A stretch of DNA of 64,000 bases, from the IMG/VR virus record IMGVR_UViG_3300037264_007554, positions 31,494-95,493 of that record; one strand, 5' to 3'. Made by a program: the position numbers and the translations under genes. Every line of letters starts with the position of its first letter. Position 1 is the stretch's first letter. Source of the stretch: a virus. A model generated the notes under the pieces. It saw only the letters and a program-made list of their open reading frames with translations. It was not told where the DNA came from and ran no database searches. Of the stretch, positions 7,458 through 61,986 are shown in pieces.

Positions 7458-7631
7458 CTATCTGCGCTTACCGCGGCGGCCGGAGCGGCAGCGGTTGAAG
7501 CCCTTGAAGCAGCTTCGGCCGGTCTGCGGGCTCAGCGCGGGCCCCGACTTCAAGCAGCTCTTGAGCGCGGTCTTGCAATGAGCGGGAGCGCTTGCTCCTC
7601 CGCGGCCGGACTTTCTTCGACGACGTGCCAT
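7458..7631 (-). CDS. Cys-rich basic mini-protein, HCK family (57 aa)
   Basis: A 57-residue, strongly basic protein, MARRRRKSGRGG at the start and RRGKRR at the end, with four cysteines in HCKTALKSC and SCFKGFNRC. The product of 23125-23271 has the same arrangement (HCKQALSHC and HCMKRFNAC), so the two are paralogues. The spacing could suit a small zinc-binding or disulfide fold that binds nucleic acid. It is translated after the large PG-binding protein gene with the ribosome site GGGAGA 10 bases before the ATG. Confidence 0.72.
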   Translation of the reverse strand: MARRRRKSGRGGASAPAHCKTALKSCLKSGPALSPQTGRSCFKGFNRCRSGRRGKRR

Positions 7632-19039: not shown

Positions 19040-19858
19040 ATGACGACACCAGACCTGAAGAGCTACGATGTGATTTTGGTGAACAGCAGCGCGGGCAAGG
19101 ACAGCCAGGCGATGCTCGACTACGTGGTGGCGCTCGCGACGGCCGCCGGGGTGCGTGACCGGGTGTCGGTCGTGCACTGCGATCTCGGGCGCGTCGAGTG
19201 GCAGGGCACCTTAGCCCTGGCCGAGCGCCAGGCCGCCCACTACGGTGTGCCGTTCCGGGCCGTCTCCCGGCCGCAGGGTGACCTGCTCACCCACATCGAG
19301 ACCCGCGGCAAGTTCCCGTCGTCCACGGCCCGCTACTGCACGAGCGACCACAAGCGCGGCCAGGTCCGGCGCGTGATGACGGCCCTGACCGACGCGGTCC
19401 GCGCGACGGGCGGCACGACCGGGCGCCCGGTGCGCATCCTGAATTGCATGGGGATCCGAGCCGACGAGAGCCCGGCGCGCGCCAAGAAAATCGACTTCCA
19501 GCGCGACGAGAAGGCCAGCAACGGTCGCCGCTCCGTCGATGCCTGGCTCCCGATCTTCACCTGGACCGTCTCCCAGGTCTGGGATCGCATCAAGGCGTCG
19601 GGCGTCGAGCACCACCGCGCGTACGATCTCGGCATGAAGCGCCTGTCGTGCGTGTTCTGCATCTTCGCTCCCAAGCCCGCGCTGCTGATCGCCGGTGCGC
19701 ACAACCCCGAACTGCTCGCCGAGTACGTGCGGGTCGAGGAGAAGATCGGCCACGACTTCCGCAAGGGCTTCAAGCTGCGAGTCATCCAGGACGAGATCGC
19801 GGCGGGCGTCGACACGGCGAAGCTCGCCGACAGCGACACCGGCTGCTGGAACATGTAA
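19040..19858 (+). CDS. PP-loop ATPase, PAPS-reductase-like (first of a pair)
   Basis: A 272-residue protein of the PAPS reductase/N-type PP-loop superfamily, which adenylates or transfers sulfur. The nucleotide loop is VNSSAGKDSQAM at residues 13-24. Downstream signatures are ARYCTSDHKRGQ, GIRADESPAR and LSCVFCIFAP; the spaced cysteines could hold an Fe-S cluster. Phage homologues are usually annotated as PAPS reductases, but sulfur-dependent DNA or RNA modification (DndC-like) is an alternative. The start has GGAGACAGAGACC before the ATG. Confidence 0.8.
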   Translation: MTTPDLKSYDVILVNSSAGKDSQAMLDYVVALATAAGVRDRVSVVHCDLGRVEWQGTLALAERQAAHYGVPFRAVSRPQGDLLTHIETRGKFPSSTARYCTSDHKRGQVRRVMTALTDAVRATGGTTGRPVRILNCMGIRADESPARAKKIDFQRDEKASNGRRSVDAWLPIFTWTVSQVWDRIKASGVEHHRAYDLGMKRLSCVFCIFAPKPALLIAGAHNPELLAEYVRVEEKIGHDFRKGFKLRVIQDEIAAGVDTAKLADSDTGCWNM

Positions 19859-19879
19859 CACCGGAAAGGGACACCGACC

Positions 19880-21028
19880 ATGAAAACAGTTCTCAGTTTC
19901 GGGATGGGCGTCGACAGCGCGGCGATCTTGCTGCGTTGGCTCGATGATCCGGCCTCGCGCGACTTCGACCTCGCCGACCTCATCGTCATCACGGCCATGA
20001 CAGGCGACGAATTCGAGCAGACCCGCATCGACTGTGAAACCCACATCCTGCCGCGCCTGCGGGCCGCTGGCGTGCGTTTCGTGCAGGTCGCGCGCGGCAA
20101 CCGCCAGGGCATGCTGGCCGTCCTTGACGACAGCCGCGCGCCCCAGGCAGTGCTCCTCGAAGGTTGGTACAAGCTGTCGCAGGAATGGGAGGAGTCCGGC
20201 ACCATCCAGGCCACGGCTGGACAGCGGCTGTGCAGCATCCACGCCAAGGGCGAGATCCTCGACAAGTGGCTGCTGCAGGAGTTCGGCAACCAGCCGTTCC
20301 GCCACGTGATCGGGTTCGAGTGCAACGAGACCGGCCGCCGCGACAAGGACGCAGCCCAAACGCGCGCGACCCAGCCGGACAAAGCCAACCGGATGCCGAA
20401 CAGAGTTCCCTGCTACCCGCTCATCGACTGGGCATGGGACCGGCAACGCTGCATCAACTACATCGCTTCGGTGACGAGCGCGGCCTGGGAGAAATCCTGC
20501 TGCGGCTACTGCCCGTTCGCCGGACAAAACAAGGCCGGGCGCGCGGACTTCGTGCGCCGCTTCCGCCGCGAGCCGGACCGCGCGGCGCAAGCGATCTGGC
20601 TCGAACACAACGCCCTGGCCTTCCACGACGGCATGAAGCTCTACAAGACCACCACCGTGCGCCAGGTGTGCAAGGATGAAGGTCTCACCGACGGGCTGAA
20701 GTTGTTCGACGAGAAGCTCGCGGCCGTCTCGGAGTGGTCCGTCTACCGCGTCGGCCGCGTCTACAACGGTGCGGCCGTGCCGCCCCGCTCGATTGTGAAA
20801 GAGGGCACCGGCAGCCGCGCGGCGATGCTGTCGCTGCTCTCGACGTTCGGACAGGTCGAAGTGGACGAACACGACCACCACCGGGTTCACCTTTCGCACA
20901 GGCCCGCACCAAAGCGTCAAGGCGTCGAGGAATACCTCGTGGTGGCCCCGGCGCACGTGCACGAGAAGACGAACAAGGCGTTCGTGAACGCGCGGGCAAG
21001 GCTGGCGGGGCTCGTGGTCGCGGCCTGA
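19880..21028 (+). CDS. PP-loop ATPase, second of the pair
   Basis: A 382-residue protein with a PP-loop at its N-terminus (SFGMGVDSAAILLRW, residues 6-20), then AMTGDEFEQT, HVIGFECNETGRR and a cysteine cluster KSCCGYCPFAGQNK near residue 211. It is therefore related to, but distinct from, the product of 19040-19858, 21 bases upstream. Two PP-loop enzymes in tandem suggest two steps of one sulfur- or nucleotide-transfer pathway, possibly nucleic-acid modification. The C-terminal 130 residues have no recognised domain. Confidence 0.76.
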   Translation: MKTVLSFGMGVDSAAILLRWLDDPASRDFDLADLIVITAMTGDEFEQTRIDCETHILPRLRAAGVRFVQVARGNRQGMLAVLDDSRAPQAVLLEGWYKLSQEWEESGTIQATAGQRLCSIHAKGEILDKWLLQEFGNQPFRHVIGFECNETGRRDKDAAQTRATQPDKANRMPNRVPCYPLIDWAWDRQRCINYIASVTSAAWEKSCCGYCPFAGQNKAGRADFVRRFRREPDRAAQAIWLEHNALAFHDGMKLYKTTTVRQVCKDEGLTDGLKLFDEKLAAVSEWSVYRVGRVYNGAAVPPRSIVKEGTGSRAAMLSLLSTFGQVEVDEHDHHRVHLSHRPAPKRQGVEEYLVVAPAHVHEKTNKAFVNARARLAGLVVAA

Positions 21029-23124: not shown

Positions 23125-23271
23125 CTAACGCTTGCACGCGTTGAAGCGCTTCATGCAGTGGCTGGCCTTTCGGCGGCCTCCCTTACCCCGCATGCAGTGC
23201 GAGAGGGCTTGCTTGCAGTGACCTGGAGCGGCCTTCGCCGCGCGCGCGGCGCCGGTGAGTCGTCTTGCCAT
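23125..23271 (-). CDS. Cys-rich basic mini-protein, HCK family (48 aa)
   Basis: A 48-residue basic protein with four cysteines: GHCKQALSHCMRGKGG, then SHCMKRFNACKR. It is a paralogue of 7458-7631 (HCKTALKSC, SCFKGFNRC). The start ATG lies 7 bases after the -10 box of a TAATTTGACA promoter, so a leaderless message is predicted. It may be a DNA-binding virion or core protein. Confidence 0.72.
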   Translation of the reverse strand: MARRLTGAARAAKAAPGHCKQALSHCMRGKGGRRKASHCMKRFNACKR

Positions 23272-53221: not shown

Positions 53222-53740
53222 GTGCAGATCGTTCGTCTTCGTGACTTGATCGTCCTCTCAGGGGCACCCCACCGGGAGGGCGGCGCGGTCACCGAAAAGC
53301 GTGACGCGACGGCCCCGGAGAATGGTCCAAACGGGGACGACGTCGTGGTTACGAACCAGAGTCGGAGGATCTCCAAGGCCAGGCGCGCGGCCGACACGTT
53401 CGTGGTCTCGTACAGCCGGAAGTTGCGCAAAGATCGGCTGCTCTGGACGCCTTTCGGCGCTCTCTACGATCCGAGCGTGCTTGAGAAATTGCAGGCGTTG
53501 CTGGCCGTGATGACCAAGGAAGCGGCCGAGTTCAACGCTTATCAGTCCGGTGGGTCGGGGGACTGCAAGATCCGGAACTACCTGCTCTGGGAGCCGCTGC
53601 GCGACACGCGCAAGGCTGCCGTCGAGGGCTGGATTACACGGCAGATCATGGACGGTGATCCGGAGGCGACGGCCGCGCTGCCGAAGCTCGTGGCGGCCTC
53701 ACGTGAGCTTCCCGAGCAGCTTCCCGATGTCCGCGTCTGA
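53222..53740 (+). CDS. Helical protein of unknown function
   Basis: 172 residues from a GTG at 53222 (a GTG at 53213 is also possible). The C-terminal two thirds are helical: ISKARRAADTFVVSYSRKLR, VLEKLQALLAVMTKEAAEFN, IRNYLLWEPLRDTRKAAVEG. The last 42 bases overlap the convergent thioredoxin-like gene. No family is recognised. Confidence 0.55.
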   Translation: MQIVRLRDLIVLSGAPHREGGAVTEKRDATAPENGPNGDDVVVTNQSRRISKARRAADTFVVSYSRKLRKDRLLWTPFGALYDPSVLEKLQALLAVMTKEAAEFNAYQSGGSGDCKIRNYLLWEPLRDTRKAAVEGWITRQIMDGDPEATAALPKLVAASRELPEQLPDVRV

Positions 53741-53956
53741 GATTGCGCCGATGCGCTTGGTGACGGTCCCGGCGCTGTCGCGCACGACCGTGGTCGGAGT
53801 GGCCTTCACGCCCAGGCGGTCGGCTAGCGCGGCCGCGCGCCGGTCGCGAGAGACATCGAGAATCCGCGCACCCCGAAACGCTTTCCGAAACCTGGGCACG
53901 TATTCGTGGCAGGCAGGGCAGCCGGTCATGACGAACACGAGAACAGCGGGGGCCAC
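53699..53956 (-). CDS. Thioredoxin-like protein
   Basis: 85 residues from a GTG at 53956: APAVLVFVMTGCPACHEYVP gives the first strand and the redox CPAC motif; then LADRLGVKATPTTVVRDSAG supplies the cis-proline strand. Shorter than typical thioredoxin because the first helix is missing. Could keep the many cysteine-containing small phage proteins reduced or help fold them. Confidence 0.75.
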   Translation of the reverse strand: MAPAVLVFVMTGCPACHEYVPRFRKAFRGARILDVSRDRRAAALADRLGVKATPTTVVRDSAGTVTKRIGAISDADIGKLLGKLT

Positions 53957-53961
53957 TCCGG

Positions 53962-53995
53962 TAATTTGACCACGGGCGGGGTGGGAGCGCAATCT
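53962..53995 (+). promoter_or_regulatory. Recurring promoter at the head of the mini-gene array
   Basis: TAATTTGACC, 18 bases, CAATCT, 7 bases, GTG at 54003. It is the only clear promoter seen before the 24-gene run. Confidence 0.65.
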
Positions 53996-54002
53996 AGGCC
54001 CT

Positions 54003-54335
54003 GTGGGTGCGCGCTGTCTGACTCTGGTGAAGTTGCGGCTCAAGAACAAATGGGCGGGCTACGGGACCGTCCACACCGCAGGCAAGTTCAGAGGGCTCGA
54101 TCTGGAAGTTCCACATTCGGAGTTGGCCATGCACACCCGGGCCGCAGGCAAGAAGTTGATCGCCTGGGCATGCAAGCCGTCCGGCCGCGAGTGCGGCATC
54201 GTGTTCGCCGAGCCGAAGGGCGGTTGTGGAGACACGTTCGGACTTCCGACCGAGGTGCTGCCTCACGGGGTTCTGCGCAGGATGGGCGGGCCCGCGGCGC
54301 GGAGCCTTTCCGGGGCTCACCGGAGGCGGCGATGA
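54003..54335 (+). CDS. Mini-gene array 1: basic protein with RRRR end
   Basis: 110 residues from a leaderless GTG: LVKLRLKNKWAGYGTVHTAG, CGIVFAEPKGGCGDTFGLPT, ending AHRRRR. The last codons (CGGAGGCGGCG) also form the ribosome site of the next gene, whose ATG overlaps the stop. Confidence 0.62.
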   Translation: MGARCLTLVKLRLKNKWAGYGTVHTAGKFRGLDLEVPHSELAMHTRAAGKKLIAWACKPSGRECGIVFAEPKGGCGDTFGLPTEVLPHGVLRRMGGPAARSLSGAHRRRR

Positions 54336-54505
54336 AGCGTAAGATCTGTGACCCGTGGGCGGCGCGATTTCTTCGTCGGACGATGTTCAACGATATCAAG
54401 ATCGCTCGTGCCAACAAGGTGTTTACGGACAAGGACATCACGGATCTGCGGAGAACGGCATTTCGGATGCTGAGTGCGTGCAAGCGCCGTCGGAGAAGAC
54501 GCTGA
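54332..54505 (+). CDS. Mini-gene array 2: poly-Arg-tailed protein (57 aa)
   Basis: MKRKICDPWAARFLRRTMFN at the start, a helical middle (FTDKDITDLRRTAFRML) and ACKRRRRRR at the end. Two cysteines. The tail codons CGTCGGAGAAGACGC precede TGATG and supply the Shine-Dalgarno of the next gene. Confidence 0.62.
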   Translation: MKRKICDPWAARFLRRTMFNDIKIARANKVFTDKDITDLRRTAFRMLSACKRRRRRR

Positions 54506-54714
54506 TGCCTTACATCGTCCTCAAGAAGAACGGCAAGAAAGAGCATCCGTCGTTCTTGTTTTTGGAACGCGACGTGGTGAACCTCGCGCGTGATCGGAAG
54601 AACTGCTACACGCTCATGAACACGACGACCCGCCGAACACGGAAAGTCGGCATGTGCAACGGGGTTTCGGCCGGGCTCAACGGGTCTCGAAGGCGTCGTC
54701 GGAGGAAGCGCTGA
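54505..54714 (+). CDS. Mini-gene array 3: poly-Arg-tailed protein (69 aa)
   Basis: MPYIVLKKNGKKEHPSFLFL, RDRKNCYTLMNTTTRRTRKV, ending GSRRRRRRKR. The tail codons CGTCGGAGGAAGCGC double as the next ribosome site before TGATG. Confidence 0.62.
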   Translation: MPYIVLKKNGKKEHPSFLFLERDVVNLARDRKNCYTLMNTTTRRTRKVGMCNGVSAGLNGSRRRRRRKR

Positions 54715-54971
54715 TGGCGAAATACCAGATCCAGGTCGGCCGTTGTCAGGGAGCTTTCCACACGCGCTATTCACTGGACAACCACTTTTCCGCTGAAATG
54801 TATTACCGCGGCCTCAACGTGGGCCGAGGGTACAAGAAACGGATCAAGGAAGACGGTAGAGTCATCGCCAAGACTGCGCCGGACATGGACTACTGCCCTT
54901 CACCTTCATCAAAACGCGCTGAACGTGTTTCTTTTCTGGGCGGTGCGCGTCGCCGCCGGAGGAAGCGCTGA
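54714..54971 (+). CDS. Mini-gene array 4: poly-Arg-tailed protein (85 aa)
   Basis: MAKYQIQVGRCQGAFHTRYS, YYRGLNVGRGYKKRIKEDGR, ending GGARRRRRKR. The same CGCCGGAGGAAGCGCTGATG junction follows. The body is unrelated to array 3, although the tails are nearly identical. Confidence 0.62.
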   Translation: MAKYQIQVGRCQGAFHTRYSLDNHFSAEMYYRGLNVGRGYKKRIKEDGRVIAKTAPDMDYCPSPSSKRAERVSFLGGARRRRRKR

Positions 54972-55240
54972 TGGCTCTCTATCGTCTGAAAGTCTGGACA
55001 GGGCCGGTGGGGGTCGTCGAGATCGGACGAAAAGTTCGTCGCGCCGGTCTCAAGAGCTACACCACGGGTACAGAGCACATCTACGTCGACGTGAAGGGTC
55101 AGTCCTGCGACGGGGCCGCGTGGAACATGCGGGCGCAGTTGTTCAGGAAGTACCGCAACGATTTCGGTCTGAGGGCGGTGTCGTGTCACATACGGAAGAA
55201 GTCCCGGCGAGCGCCGATGAGTTTCGGGTGGCGCAGATGA
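54971..55240 (+). CDS. Mini-gene array 5 (89 aa)
   Basis: A beta-alpha-beta-like basic protein: ALYRLKVWTGPVGVVEIGRK, HIYVDVKGQSCDGAAWNMRA, ending SFGWRR. ATGA overlap with the next gene. Function unknown. Confidence 0.6.
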   Translation: MALYRLKVWTGPVGVVEIGRKVRRAGLKSYTTGTEHIYVDVKGQSCDGAAWNMRAQLFRKYRNDFGLRAVSCHIRKKSRRAPMSFGWRR

Positions 55241-55575
55241 AACGGCGCCGGAAAATCCGCCTCGGGTCTACTTCGGCTGAACACGAGGAACGTGCTGCGT
55301 ATCATCGCGGGAGCGCGGAGCACGCAATCACGCGCGGTTTGCAAGCCCTCGAAGACATGAACTGCTCGCGAGCGTTCAGTGAATTTGCAAGCGCGAAGTT
55401 GTATATCGGGGAGTACGAAGCGCACATGGCATCGGCTGGAAAGGCGTCGAGCCACGAACGCATTTCCGGCAAGATCATGGACATTCATCGTCTCGAAGTA
55501 GACATCGGACGGATGTGTCTTCGTCCCAAGTCGGATTTCGTTGTGCGGAAACAGAAGGGCAAGGGGCAGAACTGA
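55237..55575 (+). CDS. Mini-gene array 6: helical protein (112 aa)
   Basis: MKRRRKIRLGSTSAEHEERA, then a helical bundle (AITRGLQALEDMNCSRAFSE, ISGKIMDIHRLEVDIGRMCL) and a basic tail RKQKGKGQN. The only clearly helical member of the array. TGATG junction with the next gene. Confidence 0.6.
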   Translation: MKRRRKIRLGSTSAEHEERAAYHRGSAEHAITRGLQALEDMNCSRAFSEFASAKLYIGEYEAHMASAGKASSHERISGKIMDIHRLEVDIGRMCLRPKSDFVVRKQKGKGQN

Positions 55576-55796
55576 TGGCCAAGTCTTGCAGCTTGTGGAT
55601 TCGTGAACACCGGCCTTCCGGCTCGGCGCCCTGGGTGCGCCGTTGTACTTTCGGGGACCGCGCCGAGATCGTTTCGGGTGGTTCATATTTCACGTACAAC
55701 GTCTACAAGGACAATACGTTCGTCAAACGCGGCAGCACGAAGTCGTTAACGGCCGCAAAAACTGCGGCGTCGCGGATCTTGGGGAGGCGGCGTTGA
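55575..55796 (+). CDS. Mini-gene array 7 (73 aa)
   Basis: MAKSCSLWIREHRPSGSAPW, NVYKDNTFVKRGSTKSLTAA, ending ILGRRR. The tail codons GGGGAGGCGGCG form the next ribosome site before TTGATG. Confidence 0.6.
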   Translation: MAKSCSLWIREHRPSGSAPWVRRCTFGDRAEIVSGGSYFTYNVYKDNTFVKRGSTKSLTAAKTAASRILGRRR

Positions 55797-56110
55797 TGAA
55801 ACGTGCCCGTTCACATTTTGGTCAGCCAGCGGCCACCCGCCCGCTCAAGACCTACGGCTACCCGAAGAAGACGCCGATGGGCTGGGCGCTCACCGACGGG
55901 CACGGCAACATCATCGGCCGCGGGAAGTTGAACGAGTGCCACAAGATCCGGCCCGGGGCTCCTGGGTCTTGGATCGATTCCAAGCGCTGTAGCTACCACT
56001 TCAAGATCGCGGGCGCGGCCGGGAAGGCGAAGTGGTACTCGTGCCGAGGGTACGGTGAGGGGATCGCGGTGTCGTGCCGCCGGATGAAAAAGCCGCCGAG
56101 GTTCTCATGA
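55796..56110 (+). CDS. Mini-gene array 8 (104 aa)
   Basis: MKRARSHFGQPAATRPLKTY, GRGKLNECHKIRPGAPGSWI, KWYSCRGYGEGIAVSCRRMK. Four cysteines and many basic residues. ATGA overlap with the next gene. Confidence 0.6.
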   Translation: MKRARSHFGQPAATRPLKTYGYPKKTPMGWALTDGHGNIIGRGKLNECHKIRPGAPGSWIDSKRCSYHFKIAGAAGKAKWYSCRGYGEGIAVSCRRMKKPPRFS

Positions 56111-56340
56111 AGAAGAAGTGGATTCGCACCGATCGTCCGTACGGATCTGAACATATGGACGCAGGCCGCTGCGGCGGCCGTATTCGCCAGCTTACCGGGC
56201 GTTCAAAAGCGTACGAATGGTCGTCGTGGATTGGAGAGCCCGGCAGCCGTGTGCTTCACAACAACGGTTTGGTCAGGACGAAGGCGAGTGCGAAACGTGC
56301 TGCGGAAAGAAGCTGCGCACGTCTGACGGGGAGACGCTGA
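56107..56340 (+). CDS. Mini-gene array 9 (77 aa)
   Basis: MKKKWIRTDRPYGSEHMDAG, GRCGGRIRQLTGRSKAYEWS, ending SCARLTGRR. Two cysteines. TGATG junction preceded by GGGGAGACGC. Confidence 0.6.
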   Translation: MKKKWIRTDRPYGSEHMDAGRCGGRIRQLTGRSKAYEWSSWIGEPGSRVLHNNGLVRTKASAKRAAERSCARLTGRR

Positions 56341-56594
56341 TGGCGACGCGCGGCCGAATGAAAGGTATCTCGAACCGAGTGCTCTGCAAGCTCGGTACGC
56401 TGTCGCACAACCGGCAATTCTCCTCGCGGGATTTTGTCGATTACACTGGCGAGGCCCCGACGCAACTTCGCGTGTTGATGAAACGCGGCATTGTTGAACA
56501 GAGTAGAGAGGGTTTGTACGCGGTTCGCAGCTACTACCCGACGCGCCGCGGGTGGGACATCATCGAGCGCGCGTGCAGGATCGGATACAAATGA
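56340..56594 (+). CDS. Mini-gene array 10: winged-helix-like (84 aa)
   Basis: NRVLCKLGTLSHNRQFSSRD, FVDYTGEAPTQLRVLMKRGI, YPTRRGWDIIERACRI. The order helix, TQLRVLMKRGIV recognition-like helix and a wing suggests a small winged helix. ATGA overlap with the next gene. Confidence 0.6.
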   Translation: MATRGRMKGISNRVLCKLGTLSHNRQFSSRDFVDYTGEAPTQLRVLMKRGIVEQSREGLYAVRSYYPTRRGWDIIERACRIGYK

Positions 56595-56794
56595 CGAAGC
56601 GCGCGGCCTGGTACGCCATCGCAACGAACGCGGGGTTCGTCGTCAAGAAGACGCGCAACCCGAAGATCCGTGGCGGCCGCTACGCGTTCGGGCCGTACAA
56701 GACCAAGGGAAAAGCCTGCCAGGTCGGCATGTACCAGCGCCATGGTAATGTGCCGAGAGGGTGCGAAGGCGTGTCGGTCCGGAGGGACAACTGA
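56591..56794 (+). CDS. Mini-gene array 11 (67 aa)
   Basis: MTKRAAWYAIATNAGFVVKK, KTKGKACQVGMYQRHGNVPR, ending GCEGVSVRRDN. Two cysteines, basic. TGATG junction preceded by CGGAGGGAC. Confidence 0.6.
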   Translation: MTKRAAWYAIATNAGFVVKKTRNPKIRGGRYAFGPYKTKGKACQVGMYQRHGNVPRGCEGVSVRRDN

Positions 56795-57057
56795 TGGCGA
56801 AGAAAAAATTGGCAGTCAGAAGTTGCGATGCCTACTACGGCGTGTCCGTCGAGCAGGTGAAAAATTACTTGGCGCGGAAAGGCGCCGGGCACGTTCACCG
56901 CAAGCGTTTCCTGCGAGACGCGAAGTTCCAGCAGTCGGGCAAGTCCGTGCTCGCGGAAACCGGGCGCCCGCACTCGTCGGATTGGGATCAGACCTTGTAC
57001 CGTTGCGAGTACGGACGAATCGTCGGGTACGCGGACTACCGAGGATCGTTGCGCTGA
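56794..57057 (+). CDS. Mini-gene array 12 (87 aa)
   Basis: MAKKKLAVRSCDAYYGVSVE, YLARKGAGHVHRKRFLRDAK, ending YADYRGSLR. Two cysteines. TGATG junction with the next gene. Confidence 0.6.
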   Translation: MAKKKLAVRSCDAYYGVSVEQVKNYLARKGAGHVHRKRFLRDAKFQQSGKSVLAETGRPHSSDWDQTLYRCEYGRIVGYADYRGSLR

Positions 57058-57197
57058 TGGCCATGACCTGCGTAGAATACAACCGCGGCTACGGCTGGGA
57101 AAGTCTCGGCTGCTTCCGTAAACGCAAACAAGCCTTCAAAAAAGCCAGGAAGATTCGCATGAAGGGCTACAAAAAAGTACGCGTGAGGGCTTACTGA
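57057..57197 (+). CDS. Mini-gene array 13: tiny basic protein (46 aa)
   Basis: MAMTCVEYNRGYGWESLGCF followed by a Lys/Arg-rich helix (KRKQAFKKARKIRMKGYKKV). Two cysteines. TGATG junction with the next gene. Confidence 0.6.
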   Translation: MAMTCVEYNRGYGWESLGCFRKRKQAFKKARKIRMKGYKKVRVRAY

Positions 57198-57409
57198 TGA
57201 CGAAGTCACGCGGCCTCTTCATCGTTTTCAAGGGCAAGAAACGCTTGTCCAACAACGTCGCCGGGCGTGTGTCCCCGTACGTCTGGAAGAAAAGCGAGGT
57301 TCGCAAGCTCGCGGCGCGCAACCCACGCGTCTGCTACAAGCTCGGCAACATCGACACGCAGCGGGTTTCGTACGTCGGCGCGTGCAAGCGCCGTCGGAGG
57401 AAACGTTGA
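57197..57409 (+). CDS. Mini-gene array 14: poly-Arg-tailed protein (70 aa)
   Basis: MTKSRGLFIVFKGKKRLSNN, RNPRVCYKLGNIDTQRVSYV, ending GACKRRRRKR. The tail codons CGTCGGAGGAAACG supply the ribosome site; the next gene starts at a TTG within CGTTGA. Confidence 0.62.
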   Translation: MTKSRGLFIVFKGKKRLSNNVAGRVSPYVWKKSEVRKLAARNPRVCYKLGNIDTQRVSYVGACKRRRRKR

Positions 57410-57681
57410 AGAAAAAAGATCCGCCCGACTGTCGTATCTCCTCCTCATTTCCAGATCAGAGACTCATTTTCAAATCTCGATCCGGCAATCACGCTTTGTG
57501 GACGTACCGGCGTTCGGATACTGGAAAAGAACGTGCGGCGGTAGCCATCAACTGCCTGAGTGGCTTCACAGATTATCCGATTAGATACGACGACGGCGGT
57601 GTAGGCTGGGACCGTCCAGAGGCGTTTCCTGCTTCTTTTCGCAAAAGCGTTCAGCGCATGTTTGGTCGGAGGAAGCGCTGA
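57406..57681 (+). CDS. Mini-gene array 15, TTG start (91 aa)
   Basis: Starts at the TTG of TTGA, which overlaps the previous stop. KKKDPPDCRISSSFPDQRLI, ERAAVAINCLSGFTDYPIRY, ending QRMFGRRKR. The tail codons GGTCGGAGGAAGCGC double as the next ribosome site before TGATG. Confidence 0.58.
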   Translation: MKKKDPPDCRISSSFPDQRLIFKSRSGNHALWTYRRSDTGKERAAVAINCLSGFTDYPIRYDDGGVGWDRPEAFPASFRKSVQRMFGRRKR

Positions 57682-57941
57682 TGCGCGTGCTTAAGGGCCA
57701 AGTTTTTCCGGGGCAGTCTGTCTGCATCCGCAAGAATCAACGTGTGCAAGTGGGTGCGCAGACACGAATTGGCGCTGTCCAAGAGTTCAAGAAACTCAAG
57801 CACGAGGTTTGCGGTGTTTTGGCCAGGGTCGGGGGACAGGGCGCGTGGGTTCACATGCCACAGGGAGAGTTGCTGTTTTCTCCGTGGAAATCTGTTTTTG
57901 TTCGACGCGGTAAACGCAAAGTTAGCTTGAGGGTGGTGTGA
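57681..57941 (+). CDS. Mini-gene array 16: beta-rich protein (86 aa)
   Basis: MRVLKGQVFPGQSVCIRKNQ, KKLKHEVCGVLARVGGQGAW, ending GKRKVSLRVV. SH3-like alternation. TGATG junction with the next gene. Confidence 0.58.
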   Translation: MRVLKGQVFPGQSVCIRKNQRVQVGAQTRIGAVQEFKKLKHEVCGVLARVGGQGAWVHMPQGELLFSPWKSVFVRRGKRKVSLRVV

Positions 57942-58021
57942 TGGCCAAGCGCCGCCGTATCACGCTCGGCAATGCTCCGAAGCGCGGCCTGTCCGGGGCT
58001 CGTCGTCGGAGGCGTCGTTGA
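57941..58021 (+). CDS. Mini-gene array 17: shortest member (26 aa)
   Basis: Only 26 residues, MAKRRRITLGNAPKRG then GARRRRRR. Apart from a short centre it consists of the shared MAKRRR start and poly-Arg end, as if it were a bare cassette. Junction GTCGGAGGCGTCGTTGATGG. Confidence 0.55.
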   Translation: MAKRRRITLGNAPKRGLSGARRRRRR

Positions 58022-58338
58022 TGGCGAAGAAATGCAGCATTGCGCAGACCAAGCAGTATGCTGCCAATCAGGTAGCGCATGGTGGAGAGCGCATGGCATT
58101 TGGTGTTCTGCAACAACGTGTGGCACGGCTGGGGTACAAGCTGCAGCGTGAGCACAGCTACCACAACAACTACAACCCGCCCGAGTGCTGGCGTGCGGCC
58201 AGTTTTACGACCATCGATCGCGAAACAGGTAAAAGTTTTGCGCATTACCAGGGCCGCCGCGATGCACGTTATCAAGAGTTGCAGCGTCTTCGACGCTACG
58301 CCGTTGTGCTGCACCGCGGGCGTCTGGTGGAGTTCTGA
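58021..58338 (+). CDS. Mini-gene array 18 (105 aa)
   Basis: MAKKCSIAQTKQYAANQVAH, LQQRVARLGYKLQREHSYHN, RRDARYQELQRLRRYAVVLH. Basic, mostly helical. TGATG junction with the next gene. Confidence 0.58.
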   Translation: MAKKCSIAQTKQYAANQVAHGGERMAFGVLQQRVARLGYKLQREHSYHNNYNPPECWRAASFTTIDRETGKSFAHYQGRRDARYQELQRLRRYAVVLHRGRLVEF

Positions 58339-58529
58339 TGGTAAAGCGCGCGGCTTGCAAGGTGGTTTTCGACAGGGACAACCGTTCGGCATTTTTGATG
58401 TCGAAGTCCGGTTACGTCCTCAACGCGATCAACTACGACCCGGGACACTGGCCGTCGAAAACCGAAAAGATTCGCGATCGTCGCAAGCTCATGCGTGGAT
58501 GCGAGGAGTTGTTGCGGAGGCATTTCTGA
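58338..58529 (+). CDS. Mini-gene array 19 (63 aa)
   Basis: MVKRAACKVVFDRDNRSAFL, KIRDRRKLMRGCEELLRRHF. Two cysteines. TGATG junction preceded by GCGGAGGCA. Confidence 0.58.
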   Translation: MVKRAACKVVFDRDNRSAFLMSKSGYVLNAINYDPGHWPSKTEKIRDRRKLMRGCEELLRRHF

Positions 58530-58741
58530 TGGCTCGACGTCGCAAACTCACGCACTGCACGGTCAAGGATTATCTTCGCGCGCAAGGCATCGATTTCTCT
58601 CGGGACTTTTTTGTGCTTCCGTCGAGAGATGTCGGGCTGATCGTAGATGGCGCCAAGGCGGCTGGATACCGCAAGAGCAAGAACGCCCCAGGCTCTACCG
58701 GCCGGATGTACTTCAGCCTTTTGCAACGGAAGTCTTGCTGA
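58529..58741 (+). CDS. Mini-gene array 20 (70 aa)
   Basis: MARRRKLTHCTVKDYLRAQG, VGLIVDGAKAAGYRKSKNAP, ending LLQRKSC. The N-terminus resembles other MARRR/MAKRR starts. TGATG junction with the next gene. Confidence 0.58.
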   Translation: MARRRKLTHCTVKDYLRAQGIDFSRDFFVLPSRDVGLIVDGAKAAGYRKSKNAPGSTGRMYFSLLQRKSC

Positions 58742-59010
58742 TGTCGCTGCGTAAAATCCACACCACGCGCGTCGGCCGGTGCTCGGTAGGGATCTACCGC
58801 GACTCCGAGTACGGCGAGTTCGTGGTCAAGAGCGTCGGCGCGGGCAAGGACACCGGCTACTTCACGAGCGACAAGCCCGACGCGCGCAGCACGGCCGCGT
58901 TTTTGGTTCGGCGTTTGCGCAAGGACAAGAGGTGTCGCGGCGAGGAGGGTGCCGTAGATCCGCGAGCTGCGCGTCCGCGGTACATAAAGCCGTGGGGACG
59001 GAGGCACTGA
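58741..59010 (+). CDS. Mini-gene array 21 (89 aa)
   Basis: RKIHTTRVGRCSVGIYRDSE, ARSTAAFLVRRLRKDKRCRG, ending PWGRRH. Two cysteines. TGATG junction preceded by GGACGGAGGCAC. Confidence 0.58.
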   Translation: MSLRKIHTTRVGRCSVGIYRDSEYGEFVVKSVGAGKDTGYFTSDKPDARSTAAFLVRRLRKDKRCRGEEGAVDPRAARPRYIKPWGRRH

Positions 59011-59228
59011 TGCCGAGGCGCCGCATCTCGACCCAGTATTGCGTCCACACCGGTGTGCCGTCGTGGCACCAGCAGCGCGCCGGGCACGGCTCGGCAGGCG
59101 CGATGTGCTTCTGGATGAAGACCGAGGCGAAGCGGTTTCTTCGTCGGGTGAAGAAGCTGCGGCCTCATGAGCCCGCGTTCATCACCACGAGTCGGAAGCT
59201 GCGTCATTTCGCGGGAGTGCGCCGGTGA
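59010..59228 (+). CDS. Mini-gene array 22 (72 aa)
   Basis: MPRRRISTQYCVHTGVPSWH, KTEAKRFLRRVKKLRPHEPA, ending FAGVRR. GTGA overlap with the next gene. Confidence 0.58.
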   Translation: MPRRRISTQYCVHTGVPSWHQQRAGHGSAGAMCFWMKTEAKRFLRRVKKLRPHEPAFITTSRKLRHFAGVRR

Positions 59229-59491
59229 AACACTGTCTGGTTTTTAACTCGACCACACGGGGAAAGCAGACGCGAGTTGATTCGTGTTTCACGACCAAGG
59301 AATACGCCAAGGCTGAAGCGGCACGGCACAATCGAACGGCCGGTTACGGCGGATTTTACTCCGTACACAAGGCGGCAACGATCGCGATGTGGCGCAGATT
59401 GAAGTACGACATGAACTTCGAGGCGCTGGATACGCCGACGTTGGCGGGTGTGCGCTCGCGCCCGCGCCAGCGAAGGGTTGTTCGGCCATGA
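59225..59491 (+). CDS. Mini-gene array 23, GTG start (88 aa)
   Basis: KHCLVFNSTTRGKQTRVDSC, EYAKAEAARHNRTAGYGGFY, ending RPRQRRVVRP. ATGA overlap with the next gene. Confidence 0.57.
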   Translation: MKHCLVFNSTTRGKQTRVDSCFTTKEYAKAEAARHNRTAGYGGFYSVHKAATIAMWRRLKYDMNFEALDTPTLAGVRSRPRQRRVVRP

Positions 59492-59697
59492 AGTACAAGA
59501 CGTACTACGAAAAAGGCAGCCACCGGCGCGGAACCCACAAGTTCCATCGAGGCGGGCCGTACTCGTCGAAGGAAAGGGCGATCGAGGCCGCTTGCCGTTT
59601 GTCCAAGCGGGTGCGCACCTGGGTATTCGTGGCGAACGCAGGCACGCGGGGATTGACCGTCGCGGCCTGTGCGAACGGGAAGCGCAAGGAACTATGA
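59488..59697 (+). CDS. Mini-gene following the array (69 aa)
   Basis: MKYKTYYEKGSHRRGTHKFH, ERAIEAACRLSKRVRTWVFV, ending NGKRKEL. It shows the KxYxxKG..TxxFH..G.YSSKE layout also visible in 55575-55796 (YNVYKDNTF, TKSLTAAKTAASRI), suggesting a shared small fold. ATGA overlap with the next gene. Confidence 0.58.
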   Translation: MKYKTYYEKGSHRRGTHKFHRGGPYSSKERAIEAACRLSKRVRTWVFVANAGTRGLTVAACANGKRKEL

Positions 59698-59906
59698 GGC
59701 AGGTATGCAACCGCTCCGTCCATGCGAAGAAGGTCAATGAGATCCGCCGCATGAAATTTCAGGTCGCCCGAGAGTTGCGCCCGTTGTTTGCGCACATTCT
59801 GAAGCTCTCGATCAGCAGCGCCAAGCACGGGTACTGCCAGCGCGCCGGTCAAGAGTTGCGAAAAGCGAAAAACCTGGCGAAAAAATATCCTGCCGTCTGG
59901 AACTGA
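59694..59906 (+). CDS. Small helical basic protein (70 aa)
   Basis: VHAKKVNEIRRMKFQVAREL, FAHILKLSISSAKHGYCQRA, ending AKKYPAVWN. It resembles the helical member 55237-55575 in its cysteine-containing A-x-x-G/E helix pairs. One base separates it from the next ATG. Confidence 0.57.
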   Translation: MRQVCNRSVHAKKVNEIRRMKFQVARELRPLFAHILKLSISSAKHGYCQRAGQELRKAKNLAKKYPAVWN

Positions 59907-59907
59907 A

Positions 59908-60165
59908 ATGACCCAACGTCGACGTACCATCAAGTGCCGTGTCGGTGAAAAGCGCTTCACCGTCGTCCGGGTCAACGGCGATCCGTACGACACGCATGCG
60001 GGGCGCAGTTTCGAGCAGGCGATGAGTACGGCTACGCCGGACCGAGGCTCGACTGTCGAAGTCTTCGCGGTCTGCGGCAAAGATCCGGGCGCCGTCCGGC
60101 TGCCGTCCGAGTACGAGAGGCGCGGGCAGCTCCTGCGGACGTTCAAGGCGAAGGGCGGCCGATAG
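59908..60165 (+). CDS. Last plus-strand mini-gene (85 aa)
   Basis: MTQRRRTIKCRVGEKRFTVV, HAGRSFEQAMSTATPDRGST, ending FKAKGGR. Two cysteines. Its end overlaps the convergent glycosyltransferase gene by 23 bases. Confidence 0.57.
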   Translation: MTQRRRTIKCRVGEKRFTVVRVNGDPYDTHAGRSFEQAMSTATPDRGSTVEVFAVCGKDPGAVRLPSEYERRGQLLRTFKAKGGR

Positions 60166-61432
60166 GCCCGTCGGGCGCCCTTTTGTGAAGGTTCGCTCGC
60201 ACGTAGGAAATGTTGTGCTGGCGGTGCCAGGGCGACGGGAAATGGGTGGTCAGTTCGGCCATTTGAAACCGGATGTCGCGATTGCTGATGTACTTGGCCT
60301 GTTCGTCGTGGATCCAGTACCAGAAGGCAGGCTCATTCCAGTAGGACACGTGTGTCGGATCCATGAAGGCTCCGCGGCCGTCGGTCGACGGCGTCTCTGA
60401 CAGGAGCCAGCCGCCCGGCGCCAGACACCGCCATATCTCGGACATCGTGTGCTGCTTGTCGGGTAGATGTTCGAGTAGATCATGGGCGCGGAATGCGAAG
60501 ACGCTCCCATCTTCCCAAGGCCAGCGCTCCCGAAGATCGGCTTCAACACCGTCAGTCCGAGTTTTGTTCGTTTGACTGGCCCAGGTGTTGTCGACAGGTA
60601 TCCAGCCTTCGCGTGGATTGAGAGCACCGCCCAAATCGTAGGCGGGCAGTCCGACGATCTTGGCTTCACGGAGAACCAGAGCCTCGATGTTCTTGCGACC
60701 GAGTTCGGTAGATTTTTCCCGAATTTCGTCGGCACGCGGCGCCCAGGTGTTCCCCTTGTGAATCCGGTAGAGGTAGAGCGGTTTGGGAATGTGAATCATC
60801 TCGGTGTGCAGATACGTCCGTATAAGCAGGTCGTGGTCGTCGCACAGGTCGAAGCCGCCTTTGTGGCCTCCAACTTCCTCGTACCAGGATCGGCGCCAGG
60901 CTCGTATGTGATTCGGTGCCCACAAGATCGTGGAAAGAGATGCGGCCGACGGCCGAAACGATCTAGGACAGAGGTAGGTCTTGCCCGCGATCTCTGCTTC
61001 GTAGAACGTCCAGCCCGAAGCCTCCCAGGCCGCGCGGTTCATTTCGTATGTCTTGCCCTCGAAGTCGGTCCAGTCAGAGTAGAAAAACCCGGCGTTGGGA
61101 TGATTGGTCGCGTATTCGGTCAAGGTTTCGAGAGCAGTCGGTGCGAGCCTGTCGTCGTGATCCAGCTCGATCAAGAGATCGCCTGTGGCTTGTTGGAAAG
61201 CCGCCAGCTTGATCTGTCCGATGCCCCAGTCTCGCGCGGGATGACTTACGACACGAACGCGCTCGTTAGTACCGGCAATGTGTCGACCAAGAACTGCAAT
61301 CTCTTTGGCGTACTGTCCGTTGCAGAAGATGATCCATTCCCAGTCTTCCAGTTTCGTCTGAGACTCGATCGACTCCCAGACTTCCAGAAGATGGAGTGGA
61401 TCGTGCGTGGGGGTGATGAGGGAGAGCTTCAT
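60143..61432 (-). CDS. Family 2 glycosyltransferase fused to a methyltransferase-like domain
   Basis: A 429-residue protein. Residues 1-245 are a GT-A fold glycosyltransferase: MKLSLITPTHDPLHLLEVWE, the metal-binding LIELDHDDRLAPTAL, and DHDLLIRTYLH. Residues about 255-410 resemble a class I methyltransferase (FRAHDLLEHLPDKQHTMSEI, LAPGGWLLSETPS), though the usual SAM-binding glycine loop is not clear. Such fusions modify surface or virion glycans. It is coupled to the 2OG oxygenase gene and lies downstream of the fibre genes, which suggests fibre or cell-surface decoration. Confidence 0.84.
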   Translation of the reverse strand: MKLSLITPTHDPLHLLEVWESIESQTKLEDWEWIIFCNGQYAKEIAVLGRHIAGTNERVRVVSHPARDWGIGQIKLAAFQQATGDLLIELDHDDRLAPTALETLTEYATNHPNAGFFYSDWTDFEGKTYEMNRAAWEASGWTFYEAEIAGKTYLCPRSFRPSAASLSTILWAPNHIRAWRRSWYEEVGGHKGGFDLCDDHDLLIRTYLHTEMIHIPKPLYLYRIHKGNTWAPRADEIREKSTELGRKNIEALVLREAKIVGLPAYDLGGALNPREGWIPVDNTWASQTNKTRTDGVEADLRERWPWEDGSVFAFRAHDLLEHLPDKQHTMSEIWRCLAPGGWLLSETPSTDGRGAFMDPTHVSYWNEPAFWYWIHDEQAKYISNRDIRFQMAELTTHFPSPWHRQHNISYVRANLHKRAPDGPIGRPSP

Positions 61433-61986
61433 TCGTCGAAGAAGAAGACCATGAAAAGACGGCTGTCGTCCACGGTGTTGCCGAAGTAGCAGGAGGCCGA
61501 GTGCACGAGGTTACCCTCCCACAGAACGAGTCTGTTGTAGACGTTGCCGATGCGGTCAACTTCCTCCCACTTCGTCCGATCGTAAAGGTTGCCGCCGTAC
61601 ATGAGGTTCTCTGTTTCAGCATCCGGGGGCGGCCGTCGAAGCCCCGTGATACGGCTACGGAAAAAAGAAAGTCCCGTTTCGGGGGGTGCATCGGGCGTGA
61701 GATAAAGGGCTCCCGCCCACTTTTGCCCGTCTGAATGATAGACGAGTGGATCTTCGCTCGTGCAGAATTGCAGGCGAGCGTTCATGCCGTGCTTGGCCCA
61801 ATCTGGGATGACGATGTCAAGCAAGCGCTCGAATTCGGATTTGTCGATGAGATCGAGGTATCGTTCGATGCTGCGGCGGCCCTTGTGGTAGTCGCTTGTC
61901 CGGTATGGTGCTTCAAGAGCCGTCGCGCGCACCTCGTCCGGGTTCGGTAAGAAGTCGTCAACGACGACCAAGGACGGGCGCTTCAT
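61429..61986 (-). CDS. 2OG-Fe(II) oxygenase
   Basis: A 185-residue dioxygenase-type protein: LVYHSDGQKWAGALYLTPD contains the HxD pair, and NRLVLWEGNLVHSASCYFG has the distal histidine, with a following arginine in DSRLFMVFFF. These supply the 2-His-1-carboxylate iron site and the 2-oxoglutarate contact. Phage enzymes of this type hydroxylate proteins or other small targets. The stop overlaps the glycosyltransferase start (ATGA), so the two probably act on the same target. Confidence 0.82.
   Translation of the reverse strand: MKRPSLVVVDDFLPNPDEVRATALEAPYRTSDYHKGRRSIERYLDLIDKSEFERLLDIVIPDWAKHGMNARLQFCTSEDPLVYHSDGQKWAGALYLTPDAPPETGLSFFRSRITGLRRPPPDAETENLMYGGNLYDRTKWEEVDRIGNVYNRLVLWEGNLVHSASCYFGNTVDDSRLFMVFFFDE

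Follow-up and report, generated by a model that had tools for sequence, protein, structure and literature searches.

A coding joint and paired cysteines in an array of overlapping mini-genes of tailed phages

Phage accessory regions are usually seen as heaps of unrelated orphan genes, and host-takeover and accessory clusters of the SPO1 type consist of tightly packed small genes without known relatives. In this study, we analyzed an array of overlapping mini-genes at positions 54003-60165 of a 64,000-base stretch of viral DNA (the window), which is bases 31494-95493 of the 95,493-base IMG/VR virus record IMGVR_UViG_3300037264_007554. The array resembles the SPO1-type clusters as a dense run of small orphan genes. 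However, two hidden rules were found in it: a coding joint between consecutive genes and the pairing of cysteines in the encoded proteins. A limited literature search found neither a shared coding joint nor paired cysteines reported for phage accessory clusters.

Cluster K mycobacteriophages possess Start-Associated Sequences (SAS/ESAS), in which a repeated sequence with a Shine-Dalgarno core precedes the starts of many unrelated genes in one orientation (PMC3203893). The SAS consensus is the 13-bp sequence GGGATAGGAGCCC (PMC3203893). Similarly, the array repeat contains a Shine-Dalgarno core and is shared between unrelated genes; GGAGG lies at ribosome-binding distance at 26 of the 57 joints in the arrays described below. 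In contrast, when the stretches before all starts are read, the array repeat is CGNCGGAGGAARCGYTGATG and not GGGATAGGAGCCC. Furthermore, it lies inside the upstream gene, where it encodes a basic tail and keeps a constant position with respect to the stop codon. The SAS are the closest known counterpart of the joint, but without the coding tail. The encoded proteins can be compared with the internal proteins of phage T4, a diverse set that has only a short tag at one terminus in common; among these, Ip1, Ip2 and Ip3 are injected and inhibit restriction enzymes of the host (PMC3012670, PMC12373910). Both groups are small, diverse and variable between close relatives. However, in T4 an N-terminal tag serves for capsid targeting, whereas the tag of the array is basic, lies at the C-terminus and is found in a third of the genes. 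In addition, the cysteine pairing is new in the array. Because the tag is at the opposite end and packaging of the array proteins is only putative, the resemblance is a likeness in working and not membership. In thermophilic archaea, disulfides in intracellular, unexported proteins have been inferred on a genome scale (PMC3177088). In the phages, the cysteine parity is confined to one operon type and is not seen in their remaining proteins.

Arrays of this kind are also present in IMGVR_UViG_3300002460_000002 (G001; 96,328 bases) and IMGVR_UViG_3300033233_000079 (G003; 40,979 bases); the phage of the window is G000. The genes were named W01-W26 in the window, X01-X13 in G001 (L019) and Y01-Y21 in G003 (L018). 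Unless the window is specified, the counts below refer to these 60 genes in three phages. The polymerases of G000 and G003 are 87% identical. The G000 polymerase resembles those of known phages only distantly, with 28% identity in the best full-length match. The array carriers are a new lineage of tailed phages. The original prediction for the window, which was made by a model from the letters, had described about 24 mini-genes of 26-112 residues. The array and the size range were confirmed; the count is 26 open reading frames (ORFs), as listed here (aa, amino acids; nt, nucleotides).

54003..54335, plus strand, W01: 110 aa, four cysteines, tail SGAHRRRR; orthologue Y01 (G003)
54332..54505, plus strand, W02: 57 aa, two cysteines, tail ACKRRRRRR; 20 tail nt identical to W14, bodies unrelated
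54505..54714, plus strand, W03: 69 aa, two cysteines, tail RRRRRRKR; orthologue Y05, paralogue W14
54714..54971, plus strand, W04: 85 aa, two cysteines, tail GGARRRRRKR; joint shares 31 identical nt with the joint of unrelated Y02
54971..55240, plus strand, W05: 89 aa, two cysteines; orthologue Y11
55237..55575, plus strand, W06: 112 aa, two cysteines, N-terminus MKRRRKIRLG; relatives X03, X04 and Y13, both cysteines invariant
55575..55796, plus strand, W07: 73 aa, two cysteines
55796..56110, plus strand, W08: 104 aa, four cysteines
56107..56340, plus strand, W09: 77 aa, two cysteines
56340..56594, plus strand, W10: 84 aa, two cysteines
56591..56794, plus strand, W11: 67 aa, two cysteines; orthologues X01 (four cysteines, tail GARRRRKR) and Y15 (no tail)
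56794..57057, plus strand, W12: 87 aa, two cysteines; orthologue Y21, moved in G003
57057..57197, plus strand, W13: 46 aa, two cysteines
57197..57409, plus strand, W14: 70 aa, two cysteines, tail ACKRRRRKR; orthologue X08; AlphaFold model β-β-α-β-β
57406..57681, plus strand, W15: 91 aa, TTG start, two cysteines; orthologues X11 and Y08; moved in G003
57681..57941, plus strand, W16: 86 aa, two cysteines; relatives X07 and X10 (duplicated in G001)
57941..58021, plus strand, W17: 26 aa, no cysteine; last 15 aa match the X10 tail (93%)
58021..58338, plus strand, W18: 105 aa, two cysteines
58338..58529, plus strand, W19: 63 aa, two cysteines; distant relative of X12/Y16
58529..58741, plus strand, W20: 70 aa, two cysteines
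58741..59010, plus strand, W21: 89 aa, two cysteines; phrog_7884 (unknown function), E 6.6e-10
59010..59228, plus strand, W22: 72 aa, two cysteines
59225..59491, plus strand, W23: 88 aa, GTG start, two cysteines
59488..59697, plus strand, W24: 69 aa, two cysteines
59694..59906, plus strand, W25: 70 aa, two cysteines; orthologue Y19
59908..60165, plus strand, W26: 85 aa, two cysteines; last gene, no tail; orthologue Y20

Neighbouring genes overlap at 24 of the 25 junctions in the window, as had been predicted: 16 are TGATG joints (1 nt shared), eight are 4-nt overlaps (ATGA, GTGA or TTGA), and the remaining one has a 1-nt gap. Overlaps of the TGATG/ATGA type are found at 51 of the 57 joints in the three phages. 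Because the nonsynonymous substitution rate (dN) between orthologues is well below the synonymous rate (dS; for example, 0.04 versus 0.54), the ORFs are real genes. A reading of the array as spurious ORFs was rejected on this ground and on the conservation of cysteines. The original prediction of unrelated bodies needs one correction: as diverged paralogues, W03 and W14 share 41% identity and both cysteines.

At many joints, the 3′ end of the gene encodes (hydrophobic)-x-Gly-Ala-Arg(4-6)-(Lys/Arg)-Arg, in which CGG-AGG is the Shine-Dalgarno sequence of the next gene. Two joints are as follows.

54688..54716, plus strand, W03/W04 joint: CGAAGGCGTCGTCGGAGGAAGCGCTGATG; peptide tail, Shine-Dalgarno, stop and start together
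54945..54975, plus strand, W04/W05 joint: GCGCGTCGCCGCCGGAGGAAGCGCTGATGGC; 31 nt identical to a G003 joint between unrelated genes

The (hydrophobic)-x-Gly-Ala part precedes the Arg run in many tails (LSGAHRRRR, FLGGARRRRRKR, RGLSGARRRRRR, TFSGARRRRKR, ALAGARRRRRKR and TLGGASRRRRKR). Cargo-loading peptides of encapsulins, which are C-terminal and bound by an HK97-fold shell, resemble this pattern only loosely (hydrophobic-x-Gly followed by basic residues). When a strong tail is defined as at least four Arg or Lys among the last six residues, 20 of the 60 genes possess one, as compared with 1.0 expected from body composition and with 6/137 conserved non-array ORFs of these phages, several of which are doubtful. 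In the window, the strong tail is present in seven of the 26 genes (W01-W04, W14, W15 and W17). Thus, the "many" Arg tails of the original prediction exist, but the strong form is found in just a third of the genes. Likewise, the predicted GGAGG before the next start is present at ten of the 25 window junctions (5-8 nt) and absent from 15; in nearly all of the ten it is read as CGG-AGG at codons -4 and -3.

In the three phages, the 26 GGAGG sequences lie 4-12 nt ahead of the next start. The distance to the start is 8 nt in 17 of the 21 TGATG joints with GGAGG and 5 nt in three of the four 4-nt overlaps with GGAGG, so that GGAGG occupies codons -4 and -3 before the stop in both overlap types. 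Correspondingly, Arg at -3 is encoded by AGG in 27/30 cases and Arg at -4 by CGG in 24/27, whereas these codons account for 8% (AGG) and 16% (CGG) of Arg codons in the bodies. Codons that destroy the Shine-Dalgarno sequence, which had been named in advance as the outcome opposed to a coding joint, are therefore not the ones used. The Arg codons at -1, -2, -5 and -6 are mixed. Thus, the Shine-Dalgarno sequence is fixed by codon and its flanks are fixed by residue.

The simplest explanation of such tails is a by-product: the overlap forces the Shine-Dalgarno sequence into the end of the upstream gene, where it reads Arg-Arg, and there is neither a module nor a function of the tail. Bare Arg-Arg of this type is seen at some joints (W11, VRRDN; W19, LRRHF). 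However, the Shine-Dalgarno sequence accounts for two Arg residues, not for five to seven plus Gly-Ala. Spacers in the Gly or Glu frame should serve the ribosome similarly, yet they are rare: the Arg frame is used for GGAGG in 17 of the 21 TGATG joints. Moreover, 20-31 nt are common to unrelated genes, and core genes do not have such tails. This explanation is already disfavoured, and we consider it very unlikely.

Another explanation is that the tail is primarily a functional peptide tag (for DNA binding or capsid loading), in which the Shine-Dalgarno sequence is nested secondarily. At position -1, all 20 tails have Arg, with eight synonymous and no nonsynonymous departures from CGC; the p-value of 1.5e-4 is optimistic because the tails were selected as basic and are joined by descent. 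Arg, and also Gly-Ala, are kept while codons vary. Every array protein is basic, and at least three Arg or Lys are found in residues 2-7 or in the last six residues of 46/60 proteins, as compared with 15.4 expected on shuffling. On the other hand, the strong tail is present in 20 of the 54 genes with an immediate downstream partner and in none of the six without one (p = 0.08), which speaks, though not conclusively, for a role at the junction rather than for a pure peptide tag. The tail is also gained and lost among orthologues: W11 ends in GVSVRRDN, X01 ends in FSGARRRRKR, and Y15 stops at PPKGCP. Taken together, a primarily peptide function is conceivable but rather doubtful. A translation device may also be considered, in which ribosomes slowed at the stop by the run of Arg codons are recaptured by the embedded Shine-Dalgarno sequence, so that reinitiation along the operon is efficient. 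The frequent overlaps, and the fact that tails occur solely where another gene follows, are consistent with this idea. However, many joints of the same arrays have no tail, and the Gly-Ala part is left unexplained. We judge it unlikely that the joint is a translation device.

Exact joint words are shared by non-homologous genes: 31 nt in W04/Y02, 28 nt in Y05/Y06, 21 nt in X10/Y10 and 20 nt in W02/W14. Shared words of at least 14 nt were found at the joints of 27/1741 non-homologous pairs and in 0/1567 comparisons of interior windows, where the longest was at most 12 nt; 24 of the 25 longest joint words are in register with the stop. Such identity between unrelated genes shows that the joint moves or is copied. 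Whole units also turn over. Despite 87% identity of the polymerases, the array of G000 (26 genes) and that of G003 (21 genes) have only about eight genes clearly in common, and in G003 both W12 and W15 have shifted relative to other array genes. In G001, the W16-type gene is present twice, and structural-type genes lie between X02 and X03. W17 is probably a deletion remnant, because 15 residues match the end of X10 (93%) and the start and tail are retained. Fixed gene order among relatives, which according to the original prediction would speak against a cassette joint, was not observed: whole units are gained, lost, duplicated and moved. Together with the identical joints in unrelated genes, these changes support the cassette-joint idea. 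We infer a recombination step at the joint from these comparisons.

Related genes are also found outside the arrays. In G001, two adjoining X09-related genes with four cysteines each (L082:11968-12503) form a satellite group about 11 kb from the array. In G003, an X02 homologue with two cysteines and the N-terminus MARKRRRR (L018:185-418) lies outside the array near structural-type genes.

The second rule is the parity of cysteines, a usual sign of disulfide bonding. It was missed by the original prediction, and we regard it as the most unusual feature of the array. In the window, 23 proteins have two cysteines, two have four and W17 has none; all these numbers are even. An even number, usually exactly two, is found in 59/60 proteins of the three phages. 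When the proteins were collapsed to 40 families, 34 have two cysteines, five have four and one has three (probability of at most one odd family, 6e-11). In contrast, 24/59 small and 33/78 large conserved ORFs elsewhere in the same phages have an odd number. Of 21 homologous pairs that were tested, with identities as low as 28%, all but W19/Y16 have both cysteines aligned, and in the W06 group of four members the cysteines are among 12 invariant columns. In X01, two cysteines were gained together. In the AlphaFold model of W14 (pLDDT 76), Cys46 starts a hairpin strand and Cys63 follows the facing strand; the strand positions in this one model are consistent with two cysteines that lie near each other. 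A second structure model was poor. No fold match to the W14 model was obtained at E 0.001, and no convincing match came from profile searches against solved structures.

Since the pairs are conserved, they might instead be metal-binding or redox sites. However, CxxC is absent from all array proteins, 20/51 two-cysteine proteins have fewer than two His, and the spacing of the two cysteines ranges from 14 to 69; sites of this kind are improbable. A zinc finger in W18 was also rejected, the Zn_ribbon_16 match being below cutoff. Paired cysteines in otherwise unrelated proteins suggest one chemistry and one destination in common. Small, very basic proteins with four cysteines (C-x6-C ... C-x6-C; e.g. 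HCKTALKSC ... SCFKGFNRC) are also encoded outside the arrays, on the minus strand, at window positions 7458-7631 and 23125-23271 and at L006:5845-6000.

All array proteins have a net positive charge (+5 to +20) and an isoelectric point of 10-12, and no hydrophobic stretch was found in them. With the Arg tails and cysteine pairs, these values would fit protamine-like proteins, which condense the phage DNA and are crosslinked via cysteines. However, the bodies are diverse and look globular (aromatic residues, predicted β-β-α-β-β), and their quick turnover between close relatives is unlike a structural need. We therefore think a protamine-like role very improbable. No common N-terminal sequence like the capsid-targeting one of T4 internal proteins was found: a MKRRRxxLG-like start is present in only 5/60 proteins. 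This motif, M-(K/R)RR-x-x-LG, occurs in W06, W17, X02, X03 and Y13, the bodies of which are unlike, and a related start (MAKRRRTNFG) occurs in a membrane-type protein adjoining the G001 array (L019:15704-16138).

A further gene lies next to the array.

53699..54049, minus strand, thioredoxin-like gene (CPAC): start uncertain, conserved part about 53699-53995

A gene of this type adjoins the array or lies within about 1 kb of it in all three phages. With modest confidence, we favour the reading that the array represents an accessory operon of tailed phages with hypervariable content, in which interchangeable mini-gene cassettes encode small basic disulfide proteins, perhaps a virion-delivered cocktail against the host or its defences. 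Any body could then be inserted with translation still coupled, either through short homology at the joint or because the joint is copied. The proteins would form intramolecular disulfides, perhaps aided by the thioredoxin-like protein. If so, an oxidising endpoint such as the released virion is expected, and an oxidising destination without a signal peptide would point to the virion. As the weakest step, the proteins may bind the packaged DNA and travel with it, in the manner of T4 internal proteins, and act as an anti-host or anti-defence cocktail. A more tentative proposal is that the phages keep dozens of unrelated small proteins as a library with exchangeable members. The cysteine rule would come from a single oxidising route, in which the proteins are loaded onto the DNA in the virion and delivered at infection, and the joint would combine a peptide tag with a ribosome-binding site, a stop, a start and homology for recombination.

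Several points weigh against the favoured reading. The array set consists of three phages only, and the joint counts are not independent, since joints share descent. Tails were picked as basic, which introduces some bias into the tests at -1 to -6. Two thirds of the array genes lack a strong tail, which therefore is not a required packaging signal for all of them. Neither a signal peptide nor a known packaging tag was found in the array proteins. Y09 has three cysteines, an exception to the even rule, and the thioredoxin-like protein could equally reduce disulfides. If the reading as an operon of exchangeable cassettes holds, the coding joint explains how genes slot in without loss of translation and offers a testable mechanism for fast gene gain. 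The parity across 40 families would make function approachable via the destination (virion, oxidising) when each protein is uncharacterised. If the proteins are injected, they would be a ready library of counter-defence candidates.

Searches for further arrays were made at several levels. A strict chain test found none in 14 further polymerase relatives; unfiltered ORF chains of at least seven were discarded, as they arise by chance. Neither the array as a DNA query nor its concatenated proteins (tblastn; a long query of low sensitivity) matched known phages. In scans of viral contigs with single proteins, W08 gave no match and W15 matched G001 only. The W11-family alignment matched only G001 and G003, and a degenerate GARRR-joint pattern matched only G001. 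From a pattern scan, the hit L007 was set aside because it lies in another frame of a 337-aa ORF. In Pfam, PHROGs, NCBIfam and PADLOC, the array proteins gave only the W21/phrog_7884 match and one weak NCBIfam match (0.0004). W21 is the sole array protein with a clear known relative: in the Pseudomonas phages UAVern and Bitten, phrog_7884 is located in the midst of small hypothetical genes. Promoter and terminator scans of the array were no better than shuffles. One genome scan gave just a weak polymerase match in a metagenome-assembled genome of Acidimicrobiaceae, from which no host was assigned.

Two relatives of 42-46 kb, G004 and G005 (L041-L046; polymerase identity 57-60%), have the replication genes in common but no array, and the contig of G005 is matched at both ends by a single gene, as a circular map would give. 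Directly downstream of the window array, on the minus strand, are a fused glycosyltransferase-methyltransferase gene (60143-61432) and a gene for a DUF6445 protein, labelled minor coat protein in PHROGs (61429-61986). Elsewhere in the window, two adjoining plus-strand genes (19040-21028) resemble, as judged by eye, proteins of the PAPS-reductase type (SSAGKDSQAML, SFGMGVDSAA).

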